From: Tenacibaculum skagerrakense
Lineage (GTDB): Bacteria; Bacteroidota; Bacteroidia; Flavobacteriales; Flavobacteriaceae
DNA length: 64,000 nucleotides
Assembly: GCF_004345825.1 (NCBI RefSeq)
Contig: NZ_SLXM01000001.1
Location: 744,001 to 808,000 of the forward strand
Reading direction: 5' to 3'
The position numbers and the translations under genes are program-made. Positions 7,341 through 46,311 of this stretch are shown here, in pieces (positions within the stretch are counted from its first letter, which is position 1; each line of letters begins with the position of its first letter). Below the pieces are notes generated by a model. That model saw only the letters and a program-made list of their open reading frames with translations, made no database searches and was not told the origin of the DNA.

Positions 7341-8660
7341 ATGAAAAAAATAACAACGTATTTACTAACAGGTTTATTTTTGTTTGCGGCAGTAGGATTG
7401 AATGCTCAGGCAAGTCAAGATTGTACTATCAAGTATAACTTATTTAAAGGAGATGTTAATACAAAAAAATATGAGCAATCTAAGGAGAATTTGAATTACT
7501 TAATGACAAATTGCCCTAAATTATCAGTTAATATATATATATATGGAGCAAAAACTGCAGATAATTTGAAAGATGCTGCTCTGTATAAAAAAGTATACGA
7601 GACGCGTATAGCAAACTTCCCTGAAAAAGGAGTTGCTAAAGCACATAGTGATTATGCAACTTTTTTAGACGATAATAATTTAGGTTCTGAAGATGAAATC
7701 TTTAGTCTTCTTGAAAAAGCCTACAAAGCTGACCCTAAAGATATGGGAGTTAAGAATATTTTTAAATATTTTAAAGGTATTGTTAGCAGATATAAAGATA
7801 GCGACCCTCAAAAAGTATTTGATACTTATGATGATGTAATGGAATCTGTTGAAGAAAAATTAGATGATTACAACAAAAAGATCAGTAAGTTAATGGCAAA
7901 AGATTCTCTTGGTACTATAGATGCTAAAGGAAAGAGATTATTAAAAGCCTATACTACTAACTCTAAAGCATTAGGTTTAATTGAAGGAGGTTTAGATGCT
8001 GATATTTCTGAAATCGCTACTTGTGAAAGATTAATTCCAATTTTCTCTAGAGATTTTGAAGCAAACAAAACAAATGGAGTTTGGTTAAGAAGAGGGGTGT
8101 CTAGATTATATAACAAAGAGTGTGATACGGATCCTTTATTCGAAAAAATGGCTAAAGCTTATGCCGATGTAACTCAGTCTGCTGATGCATTCAACTTTAT
8201 TGCTGGTGTATTAGAAAGAAATGGAGATAAAAGTGGAGCAGCTTCAATGCGTAAGAAAGCTTTTGAATTAGAAACTGACCCTAATAAAAAAGCAAGACTT
8301 AAGTTAAGAGAAGCTCAAGGTACTAGAAATAGTAGTAGAGCAAGAGCATTAGCTTATGAAGCTTTAAAATACAATCCAAACATGGGTAAAGCATATTTAT
8401 TCATTGCAAGTTTATACGCTAAGAGTGCAAACTCTTGTGGAGATGATGAATTTGAAAAGAGAATGGTTTATGTTGCAGCTTTAAATAAAGCAGAAAAAGC
8501 GCAAAGAGTAGACCCAGGATGTGGAGCAGGAAGATATATTAGTAGCTACAGAGGTAATGTTCCTTCAAAAAAGTTAATCTTTACTAAAGGAGTTGCTGCA
8601 GGAAGTGCTCATAAAATTGGATGTTGGATTGGTGAAACAGTTCGCGTACCAAATAATTAA
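7341..8660 (+). CDS. Secreted tetratricopeptide-repeat protein
   Basis: A 439-residue protein with a signal peptide (residues 1-22, ending LNAQA), followed by helical repeats of TPR type. Examples are DNNLGSEDEIFSLLEKAYKA and, near the C-terminus, ALAYEALKYNPNMGKAYLF. Cysteines occur throughout (DCTIKYN, TNCPK, CERL, CDTD, NSCGDDE, DPGCGAG), which fits an oxidising periplasm. It starts 14 bases after the barrel gene and shares one base with lptC, so it belongs to the coaX-to-CorC operon. It is probably an envelope scaffold; I do not assign a specific function. A run of six AT units at 7531-7542 lies in the frame. Confidence 0.82.
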   Translation: MKKITTYLLTGLFLFAAVGLNAQASQDCTIKYNLFKGDVNTKKYEQSKENLNYLMTNCPKLSVNIYIYGAKTADNLKDAALYKKVYETRIANFPEKGVAKAHSDYATFLDDNNLGSEDEIFSLLEKAYKADPKDMGVKNIFKYFKGIVSRYKDSDPQKVFDTYDDVMESVEEKLDDYNKKISKLMAKDSLGTIDAKGKRLLKAYTTNSKALGLIEGGLDADISEIATCERLIPIFSRDFEANKTNGVWLRRGVSRLYNKECDTDPLFEKMAKAYADVTQSADAFNFIAGVLERNGDKSGAASMRKKAFELETDPNKKARLKLREAQGTRNSSRARALAYEALKYNPNMGKAYLFIASLYAKSANSCGDDEFEKRMVYVAALNKAEKAQRVDPGCGAGRYISSYRGNVPSKKLIFTKGVAAGSAHKIGCWIGETVRVPNN

Positions 8661-45106: not shown

Positions 45107-45649
45107 TTATTCGTTACAAATTTTACAATCTTCTTTTTCTTGAATTTCTCCCACTAGTTTTCCTTCATCATTTAATGTTAATCCACAGCAATCCATAAAT
45201 CCTTGAACAATCATTTTACGTGCTCTTTGAATTTGGGATTTTATAGTAGGTAAAGGTAAATCTAATTGTGTTGCTATTTCTTGTTGTTTCATACCTTTTA
45301 TATCAGCTAAAAATAAAGGTGTTCTATATTTTTTAGGAAGATTTGTAATAATACCACGTAAGCAATCTTTTTCGGTATGAATATGCTCTTCAAGTTCAAC
45401 AGGTATTTCAGGAGTTTCAAAAGTGATTGTTTTACCAGTAGATTTAAAATGATCATAAATAGCATTTCTTGTAATTGTGAAAATCCACGATTTCAATTTT
45501 GATACATCTCTTAACGTAGAAAGTTTATTGTGAATTCTTATAAAAGCGTCTTGTAAAATATCGTCAGCAATGATTTCGTCTTTAGTTTTACTTACTATAA
45601 AACGCTTTAAATCTGTGTGGTATGTAGTCCAAATTTCTCGGGTTGTCAT
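45107..45649 (-). CDS. sigZ: ECF RNA polymerase sigma factor, SigZ type
   Basis: A 180-residue sigma factor. Region 2 (~8-80) has ADDILQDAFIRIHNKLSTL and KLKSWIFTITRNAIYDHFK. Region 4 (~105-160) has RGIITNLPKKYRTPLFLADIKGMKQQEIATQLDLPLPTIKSQIQRARK. The C-terminus is cysteine-rich: MDCCGLTL and EDCKICN. The SigZ subgroup typically ends this way, and no anti-sigma gene is adjacent. The cysteines could bind metal or sense redox state. Directly upstream lies an 11-cysteine mini-protein gene, and a Crp/Fnr gene follows 4 bases downstream. Confidence 0.9.
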   Translation of the reverse strand: MTTREIWTTYHTDLKRFIVSKTKDEIIADDILQDAFIRIHNKLSTLRDVSKLKSWIFTITRNAIYDHFKSTGKTITFETPEIPVELEEHIHTEKDCLRGIITNLPKKYRTPLFLADIKGMKQQEIATQLDLPLPTIKSQIQRARKMIVQGFMDCCGLTLNDEGKLVGEIQEKEDCKICNE

Positions 45650-45672: not shown

Positions 45673-45735
45673 ATGTCATTCCGAAGGAAGAAACCAAAAT
45701 TTTATAGCACTTCTTCCTTTCAGAACAACAAGTTT
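45673..45735. repeat. Probable degenerate interspersed repeat
   Basis: GTCATTCCGAAGGAAGAA starts at 45675, and TTCTTCCTTTC (45711-45721) forms an imperfect inverted repeat with it. Sequences beginning GTCATTCCGAAG are a familiar intergenic repeat type in Flavobacteriia. It lies between sigZ and the cysteine-rich gene. Confidence 0.4.
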
Positions 45736-45743
45736 AAGGTGTA

Positions 45744-45848
45744 TTAACAATTACAGTTTGTACAGGTGCAGTTTTCGCATGTGCAATTTTTACAGTCATC
45801 TGTAGTGCAACTTGTGCAGGTGCAAGTACATTCGTTTTTGTAATTCAT
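45744..45848 (-). CDS. Cysteine-rich mini-protein (34 aa, metallothionein-like)
   Basis: A 34-residue ORF too short for most gene finders. It has 11 cysteines, at 7, 9, 11, 14, 19, 22, 24, 27, 29, 32 and 34, arranged as CxCxC, CxxC and repeated CxxCxC. The spacers are Thr, Asn, Asp, Glu and Lys; there is one Tyr and no long hydrophobic run. This arrangement is that of a small metallothionein that could bind several Zn, Cu or Cd ions. An 8-bp inverted repeat lies immediately upstream of its ATG (45849-45878), and sigZ follows on the same strand. I know no named family for it. Existence is supported by composition and position. Confidence 0.65.
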   Translation of the reverse strand: MNYKNECTCTCTSCTTDDCKNCTCENCTCTNCNC

Positions 45849-45878
45849 GTCTATTATTTTAAAGTTCACTTAATAGAC
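45849..45878 (-). promoter_or_regulatory. Inverted repeat before the cysteine-rich gene
   Basis: GTCTATTA (45849-45856) and TAATAGAC (45871-45878) pair perfectly across 14 bases and end directly at the ATG. It could be an operator or a 5' UTR hairpin controlling translation. Confidence 0.5.
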
Positions 45879-45905
45879 CAAAAAAGGCTAAAAAAGATGC
45901 AAACT

Positions 45906-46244
45906 TTAAAAGAATTTTTCTAATTCTTTTCGTAAGGGTATTGATTTTATAGCCGAGATATTAGCTCCTCCACTGTTTCCTGTAGGAACCCAAAAAGGAG
46001 TAATAATAATGGAAGCAATAATTCTAATAATTTGTCCTGAAATCTCTTTAAGATTTTGTGTTTTTAAACCAACTACTAACATCCAGAAGTGAGATAAAGT
46101 ATGTCTGTATGTGTTTTTTTGACCTAGAATATGTGCGTTTTCAAAATGATAGAAAGCTAATTTAAATTCTTTCTTTTTTAATAGATGTTTTCCTTGTGCA
46201 AGTTGGTTGTAAAATTCTTTTTTGCGATACTGCTTTTTAATCAT
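45906..46244 (-). CDS. DUF3703-like protein
   Basis: A 112-residue protein. KHLLKKKEFKLAFYHFENAHILGQKNTYRHTLSHFWMLVVGL and the C-terminal PFWVPTGNSGGANISA fit DUF3703. One hydrophobic segment (~75-90, RIIASIIITPFW) is present. ATG 46244 (MIKKQYRKK) is preferred to an extended frame from 46280. It lies upstream of the cysteine-rich gene on the same strand. Function unknown; its neighbourhood here is a possible stress or metal cluster. Confidence 0.72.
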   Translation of the reverse strand: MIKKQYRKKEFYNQLAQGKHLLKKKEFKLAFYHFENAHILGQKNTYRHTLSHFWMLVVGLKTQNLKEISGQIIRIIASIIITPFWVPTGNSGGANISAIKSIPLRKELEKFF

Positions 46245-46311
46245 ATTTTCTATCTGTTTTAAAAATAGACTGAAAAACAACTTTAAAGATGCATCTGAAT
46301 TTTCTAGGAAA

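Follow-up and report, generated by a model that had tools for sequence, protein, structure and literature searches.

The window analysed here is a stretch of 64,000 nucleotides of the Tenacibaculum skagerrakense genome. The locus of interest within it (Table 1) consists of a gene for a short cysteine-rich peptide, a gene for a SigZ-like ECF sigma factor that follows on the same strand 94 bp downstream, a hairpin between the two, a promoter in front of the peptide and, further upstream, a gene for a DUF3703 protein. A preliminary description of this DNA had placed a 34-residue, 11-cysteine reading frame here, sharing strand and neighbourhood with SigZ; the spacing and orientation agree with this, and the translation of the frame, MNYKNECTCTCTSCTTDDCKNCTCENCTCTNCNC, confirms it together with its stop codon. 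It had also pointed out that one third of the residues are cysteine, arranged in CxC and CxxC arrays. This holds as well, as the cysteine fraction of 0.32 is the highest among the ORFs of 25-70 residues with an ATG start in the window (the runner-up has 0.14) and lies above the maximum of 0.23 reached by ATG frames of the same lengths in 100 copies of the window generated by a second-order Markov model.

Table 1. Positions of the features at the peptide-sigZ locus, numbered within the window.
Feature	Position	Strand	Basis or remark
Cys-rich peptide gene, metallothionein-like	45744..45848 (including stop)	minus	34 aa, 11 Cys; homologues, conserved Cys, pN/pS
sigZ-like ECF sigma factor gene	45107..45649	minus	180 aa; Sigma70_r2 and r4_2; SigZ models give the top NCBIfam scores
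Codons of the SigZ C-terminal Cys tail (C154 C155 ... C175 C178)	45116..45190	minus	invariant in 25/25
Codon of SigZ linker C96, between sigma2 and sigma4	45362..45364	minus	invariant in 25/25
Hairpin, likely attenuator or mRNA stabiliser	45674..45730	minus	between peptide stop and sigZ start; MFE -24.9, z -3.7
ECF-type promoter, TGCATCTTTTT-N12-GTCTA	45874..45901	minus	25 bp before the ATG; the genome has no other exact match
DUF3703 protein gene, second likely regulon member	45906..46244	minus	112 aa; PF12487, 1.7e-33
Promoter-like site before DUF3703	46266..46292	minus	2 mismatches to the motif; exact copies before DUF3703 in relatives

The 34-residue ORF is a conserved gene. A search of 59 genomes, 36 of them from the genus including the own genome, found peptide homologues in 24 further genomes of the genus, giving 25 in total at E <=1.4e-4; two weak matches, one in G039 (E 0.175) and a second one in G025 (E 0.342), were left uncounted. 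The preliminary description had held that a frame broken in close strains would speak against a gene. The frame is conserved among the relatives, and in an alignment of 24 of the 25 genus peptides (one of two identical ones was omitted) 10 of the 11 cysteines are invariant and conservation extends from end to end. The pN/pS ratio is 0.16 (28 codons; 14 of the 24 aligned sequences) at a pS of 0.80, a value that places the synonymous sites near saturation. A frame of only 34 codons in an A+T-rich intergenic stretch might be suspected of having arisen by chance, but the kept frame, the invariant cysteines, the low pN/pS ratio and the fixed distance to the promoter contradict this, and its probability is negligible. 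With an alternative GTG start, which lies 21 bp upstream and begins 4 bp past the GTCTA of the promoter, the product would have 41 residues; the peptides of the relatives align from the ATG.

The peptide shares with metallothioneins its short length and a very high content of cysteine in CxC and CxxC arrays, and it matches no described metallothionein family in the three collections searched: Pfam gave no match for 24 members of the peptide family, NCBIfam gave none for the window peptide, and PDB gave none for either the profile of these peptides (clade 1) or that of a second family described below (clade 2). HMMER has little power with sequences so short and biased. Metallothioneins are a functional class and not one homologous family, so the mismatch limits membership in a named family and not function.

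The peptide and the sigma factor are found together across the relatives, which are non-independent samples in all of the pairing and motif counts that follow. Within the genus, exactly the 25 of 36 genomes that have the peptide also have a SigZ orthologue downstream of it on the same strand (E below 1e-65, 58-68% identity), and the other 11 have neither. Among 397 genomes of the family, 68 have a peptide match and 52 have SigZ at E<=3.7e-50, and in all 52 of these the peptide lies 6-252 bp upstream (median 79.5). In named genomes the peptide is beside sigZ in 80 of 80 loci taken from the best 80 of 172 relatives, at 2-126 bp upstream in all except one, where the distance is 702 bp; these include Tenacibaculum, Polaribacter, Winogradskyella, Lutibacter, Bizionia, Lacinutrix and Tamlana. 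The search for short Cys-rich ORFs upstream of sigZ elsewhere, which the preliminary description had suggested as a check, thus came out positive in all three sets. Its other proposed neighbours did not hold up as parts of the module, as a Crp-type gene lies directly 3' of sigZ in only 5 of the 63 loci that have a downstream ORF and a DJ-1 gene is not conserved beside sigZ. Downstream of the operon no gene is conserved at all, the largest cluster or Pfam family being present in 10 of the 63 loci.

Of the 68 family genomes in which the peptide was matched, 16 gave no SigZ at E<=1e-35; their peptide matches are weaker and several of these genomes are incomplete. The promoter motif described below is absent in 15 of the 16, so SigZ is not always the regulator of the peptide. 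Inspection by eye revealed no common neighbour of the peptide in these 16 genomes except in three of them (L191, L198 and L200), where it directly follows, with no ECF motif, a metallo-hydrolase gene that we take to be PqqB-like and whose product has a Cys-rich stretch near its N-terminus. Short Cys-rich precursors of natural products exist, and the position after a PqqB-like gene in these three genomes would suit a ribosomally made peptide that is modified and exported. This reading is very improbable: a family found in at most 10 of 63 loci leaves no constant partner downstream of the operon, and the cysteines are conserved along the whole peptide.

The operon is preceded by an ECF-type promoter. 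Among 81 loci, made up of the window and those from the best 80 of 172 relatives, 76 have TGCATC-17-GTCT exactly, and in these 76 GTCT ends 25-30 bp before the peptide ATG. With a base or two changed the promoter is present in four more (L079, L095, L122 and L134), bringing the total to 80 of 81; it is missing at L121, which is close to a contig end. A weight matrix recovers 79 of the 80 sites on which it was itself trained, and finds only six others in 798 kb, all of them at the start of DUF3703 genes, ~400 bp ahead of the peptide. The exact motif occurs in 40 of the 397 family genomes. Of the 52 SigZ-positive ones, 34 have it ahead of the peptide, one of these 34 also has it ahead of DUF3703, and one further SigZ carrier has it ahead of a CDF gene. 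Only 5 of the 345 family genomes lacking SigZ have any exact motif, and the three that were read head no clear gene. Two loci from genomes lacking this SigZ (L393 and L403) have in common a TGCAACTTTT...GTCTA site 27-29 bp before genes for similar secreted or outer-membrane-like proteins; a different ECF sigma factor may use this site as its promoter.

The promoter of the operon is most likely recognised by SigZ itself, and SigZ would therefore activate its own operon. The preliminary description had left open whether the peptide is controlled by the sigma factor or controls it. The direction can be refined, in that control most likely runs from the sigma factor to the peptide.

The best-scoring NCBIfam models for the sigma factor are those of SigZ, with 152.0 bits for TIGR02959 (cut-off 168.65) and 168.1 for NF007215 (cut-off 212), so that both scores lie below the curated cut-offs. 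Its C-terminus carries the CC and CxxC that had been described, and C154, C155, C175 and C178 are invariant in 25 of 25 orthologues. In an AlphaFold2 model (mean pLDDT 79.6, pTM 0.42) C154-C155 close the last helix and are followed by a small hairpin and then the CxxC, with block pLDDT values of 73, 69 and 59 from residue 151. The modelled tail is compatible with a four-thiolate site and is not proof of one. At locus L030 the C-terminal part of SigZ is encoded a second time, at 7759-7980, ~1 kb downstream of the intact sigZ. An anti-sigma gene was considered as a downstream partner and dropped, as no conserved one was seen in 63 scanned downstream ORFs, where the 25 commonest of 52 Pfam families include none.

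The arrangement of cysteines invites comparison with CorE and CorE2 of Myxococcus xanthus (ECF238, formerly ECF44), which respond to Cu and to Cd and Zn, respectively, and are governed by their C-terminal extension (PMC8999054). CorE drives a copper ATPase gene (PMC10141476). Like these factors, the window SigZ is an ECF sigma factor with a C-terminal Cys region, which is the Cys-rich extension expected of a CorE-like protein, and with cysteine in the linker (PMC8999054). It differs from them in being nearest to SigZ models, in having a CC...CxxC tail and in having a Cys-rich peptide gene in its operon; the likeness is one of described features alone. The linker CxC, kept only by former ECF44 members (PMC8999054), is absent between sigma2 and sigma4, where clade 1 has the single C96 and clade 2 has CC, and for this reason the window SigZ is not filed as a CorE member. 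OrbS from Burkholderia cenocepacia is likewise an ECF sigma factor with C-terminal cysteines that act as an on-board metal sensor; unlike what is proposed for the window SigZ, it is inhibited by iron and serves siderophore genes (PMC9023288).

Between the peptide and sigZ a hairpin is steadily present with little conservation of sequence. Its z score is below -2 in 67 of the 69 clade-1 gaps and 17 of the 18 clade-2 gaps tested against mononucleotide shuffles (of 81 and 21 gaps, the rest being too short or too long). It may allow more peptide than sigma factor to be made.

Two groups of genes outside the operon carry the motif, namely DUF3703 and metal exporters, and we infer their membership in a SigZ regulon from this common promoter. 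In 31 of the same 81 loci the gene immediately upstream of the peptide is that of DUF3703, and it has the motif in at least 22 of these 31, a count that rests on a narrow pattern and to which the weight matrix adds three; at L104 it follows sigZ instead. Plasmid records with a DUF3703 match numbered 30, and in four of the five that were read the gene is near CadR, CDF, CzcA or P-type ATPase genes; in the fifth its neighbours are lspA and a transposase. One plasmid, from Pseudoalteromonas (L491), has genes for a CDF protein, DUF3703 and a TonB receptor in a cluster. A search of the open-access literature found no paper on DUF3703. Within the own genome 25 sites have at most two mismatches (the reversed control pattern has 17 matches), and among the 23 classified (all but L203 and L223) promoter positions are occupied only at peptide-sigZ and DUF3703, and no exporter has the motif; the two CDF genes of this genome have no site with at most four mismatches in the stretches read.

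Exporters with the motif are found in the relatives. Beyond the sites already described, 67 with no more than one mismatch were read in 57 SigZ-positive genomes, and 23 of these have an ORF of at least 100 codons within 60 bp. The 57 were drawn from 75 known SigZ carriers, and the 31 outside the genus were picked for having the motif, so the presence of the motif in 57 of 57 is biased by this choice. Seventeen of the 23 ORFs are metal-related: 12 CDF exporters, all confirmed by Pfam; one heavy-metal P-type ATPase, which passes the cut-offs of TIGR01525 and TIGR01512; one RND pump of the CusA/CzcA type, which passes that of TIGR00914; and three TonB receptors that by their coordinates directly precede a CDF gene. 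The other six (L327, L336, L348, L357, L358 and L373) encode unrelated products. At L342, L350 and the G029 locus (L360) a TonB-dependent receptor lies directly before a CDF gene with motifs before both, that of the CDF gene in G029 having two mismatches. Within the genus a CDF exporter is present in 14 of 25 SigZ-positive vs 0 of 11 SigZ-negative genomes (five of the 11 are <90% complete), and among the 14 the motif is present in 13, at no more than two mismatches. Control genomes without this SigZ, also 57, have no exact site and 52 one-mismatch sites, and none of the 30 of these that were read heads an efflux gene.

These genes also bear on whether the module answers thiol or oxidative stress, with the peptide as a sacrificial store of thiols and the SigZ cysteines as a redox switch. 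Cysteine motifs alone cannot separate metal from redox sensing, and a link between metallothioneins and oxidative stress has been reported as well (PMC11237414). The motif-headed genes argue against a redox role, as 17 of 23 are metal-related and no catalase, thioredoxin or peroxiredoxin was seen among them (with certainty for the Pfam-scanned ones only), and DUF3703 travels with metal-resistance genes; we consider it quite unlikely. As for the metal that would be answered, CDF exporters and a Cd-type ATPase point to Zn or Cd.

One of the control sites (L405) heads another peptide-sigZ pair, with a peptide of 37-39 residues and 15 cysteines upstream of a diverged SigZ, and five of the 57 control genomes (G089, G111, G119, G121 and G134) carry such a pair. 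In this clade 2 (L405 and L410-L440) the peptide cysteines are invariant, a sister promoter GTATC-17-[GA]TC[TA] precedes all 21 peptides, and a terminator-like hairpin mostly lies between the peptide and SigZ; NCBIfam gave no match for 20 of the peptides. The SigZ proteins keep the tail except at L410 and have the CC in the linker. Across 43 loci of SigZ paralogues, the CC...CxxC tail and the peptide occur together in 20 and neither occurs in 21, with two discordant loci (L410 and L414); 21 of the 22 paralogues without the tail have no Cys-rich peptide.

A survey of the phylum (395 genomes) gave a SigZ match in 39. The 29 loci read, out of 40 matches, covered 900 bp upstream and 1200 bp downstream, and several of the genomes repeat earlier sets. 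The peptide is upstream in 10 (own and genus genomes included), a different short Cys-rich peptide is downstream in four, and no Cys-rich peptide is near sigZ in 15, several of which have other Cys tails. At L449 the SigZ tail lies outside the reading frame used, and an upstream match at L469 (Trp-rich, unlike the others) was scored as chance. In the four loci with reversed order (L460, L461, L463 and L464) sigZ comes first and a peptide of 26-43 residues follows 72-91 bp downstream, with TGC[AG]TC...CGTCTT before both.

The peptide could instead be chiefly a regulator of SigZ, a small Cys-rich anti-sigma factor or metal donor that would bind the SigZ tail and let go of it upon exposure to metal or oxidant. 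Every clade-1 SigZ that was read has an adjoining peptide, both partners are rich in cysteine, and the operon has no conserved anti-sigma gene downstream, all of which would fit such a role. However, dissimilar peptides (with 11 cysteines, with 15 cysteines, and the short downstream types) serve different SigZ clades, which would suit chelation better than a specific interface, and 16 genomes keep the peptide with no SigZ found. A chiefly regulatory peptide is thus unlikely.

The preferred reading is that the peptide is probably a short metallothionein that belongs to the operon and the regulon of a CorE-like, metal-sensing SigZ. The frame, the pairing, the promoter and the motif-bearing genes can be read from the sequences directly; recognition of this promoter by SigZ, metal binding, sensing, attenuation and feedback are what we infer from them. 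The peptide and sigZ would form one transcription unit read from the ECF promoter. Binding of a thiophilic metal (Zn, Cd or Cu) to the CC...CxxC tail and the linker cysteine would switch SigZ on, as in CorE and CorE2. Active SigZ would then give strong transcription of the peptide and, through the intergenic hairpin, weak transcription of sigZ, and would also turn on DUF3703 and, in many relatives, the CDF, P-type and RND metal exporters. As the peptide soaks up metal, the free metal would fall and SigZ would be switched off. The core idea of the preliminary description, that a peptide which buffers metal is coupled to an ECF sigma factor, gains comparative support from the pairing, from the ECF-type promoter and from the exporters with the same promoter in relatives. 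A bolder proposal, for and against which we hold the balance even, is that this is a self-contained metallostat. In it an ECF sigma factor would sense metal directly through a C-terminal Cys knot, its gene would lie downstream of that for the metallothionein under its control, and the metallothionein would in turn strip the factor of its metal. Across Bacteroidota the arrangement would have been retained or formed anew with three or more dissimilar Cys-rich peptides, so that selection would on this proposal keep the pair and not the peptide sequence.

To our knowledge few metallothioneins have been described in Bacteroidota. The peptide resembles SmtA, NmtA, PmtA and MymT in being small, Cys-rich and linked to metal, a likeness by published descriptions and not by sequence. 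MymT belongs to a copper regulon with RicR as its regulator (PMC10141476), and AzuR regulates NmtA (PMC8790569). Neither regulator is a sigma factor in the same operon, unlike the pair in the window. In Mycobacterium tuberculosis, artificial induction of sigC was followed by a higher mymT transcript, and the authors tied this late rise to copper accumulation; the available text describes no shared operon for SigC and mymT, which sets them apart from the window pair (PMC7924339). The open-access literature yielded no paper joining three of the terms metallothionein, flavobacteria, sigma factor and SigZ, and the accessible parts of papers on both metallothioneins and ECF sigma factors describe no operon shared by the two.

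If this reading is right, Cys-tailed SigZ-like sigma factors would gain a testable signal, a promoter and a regulon, and a function would be assigned to proteins that are too short for most gene callers. DUF3703, an unknown domain near metal-resistance genes in records from Bacteroidota and Pseudomonadota, would gain a context. The circuit would resemble that of CorE and CorE2 with a metallothionein added in the same operon, and the joint encoding of a sigma factor and a metal buffer of its own would provide feedback in a compact form.
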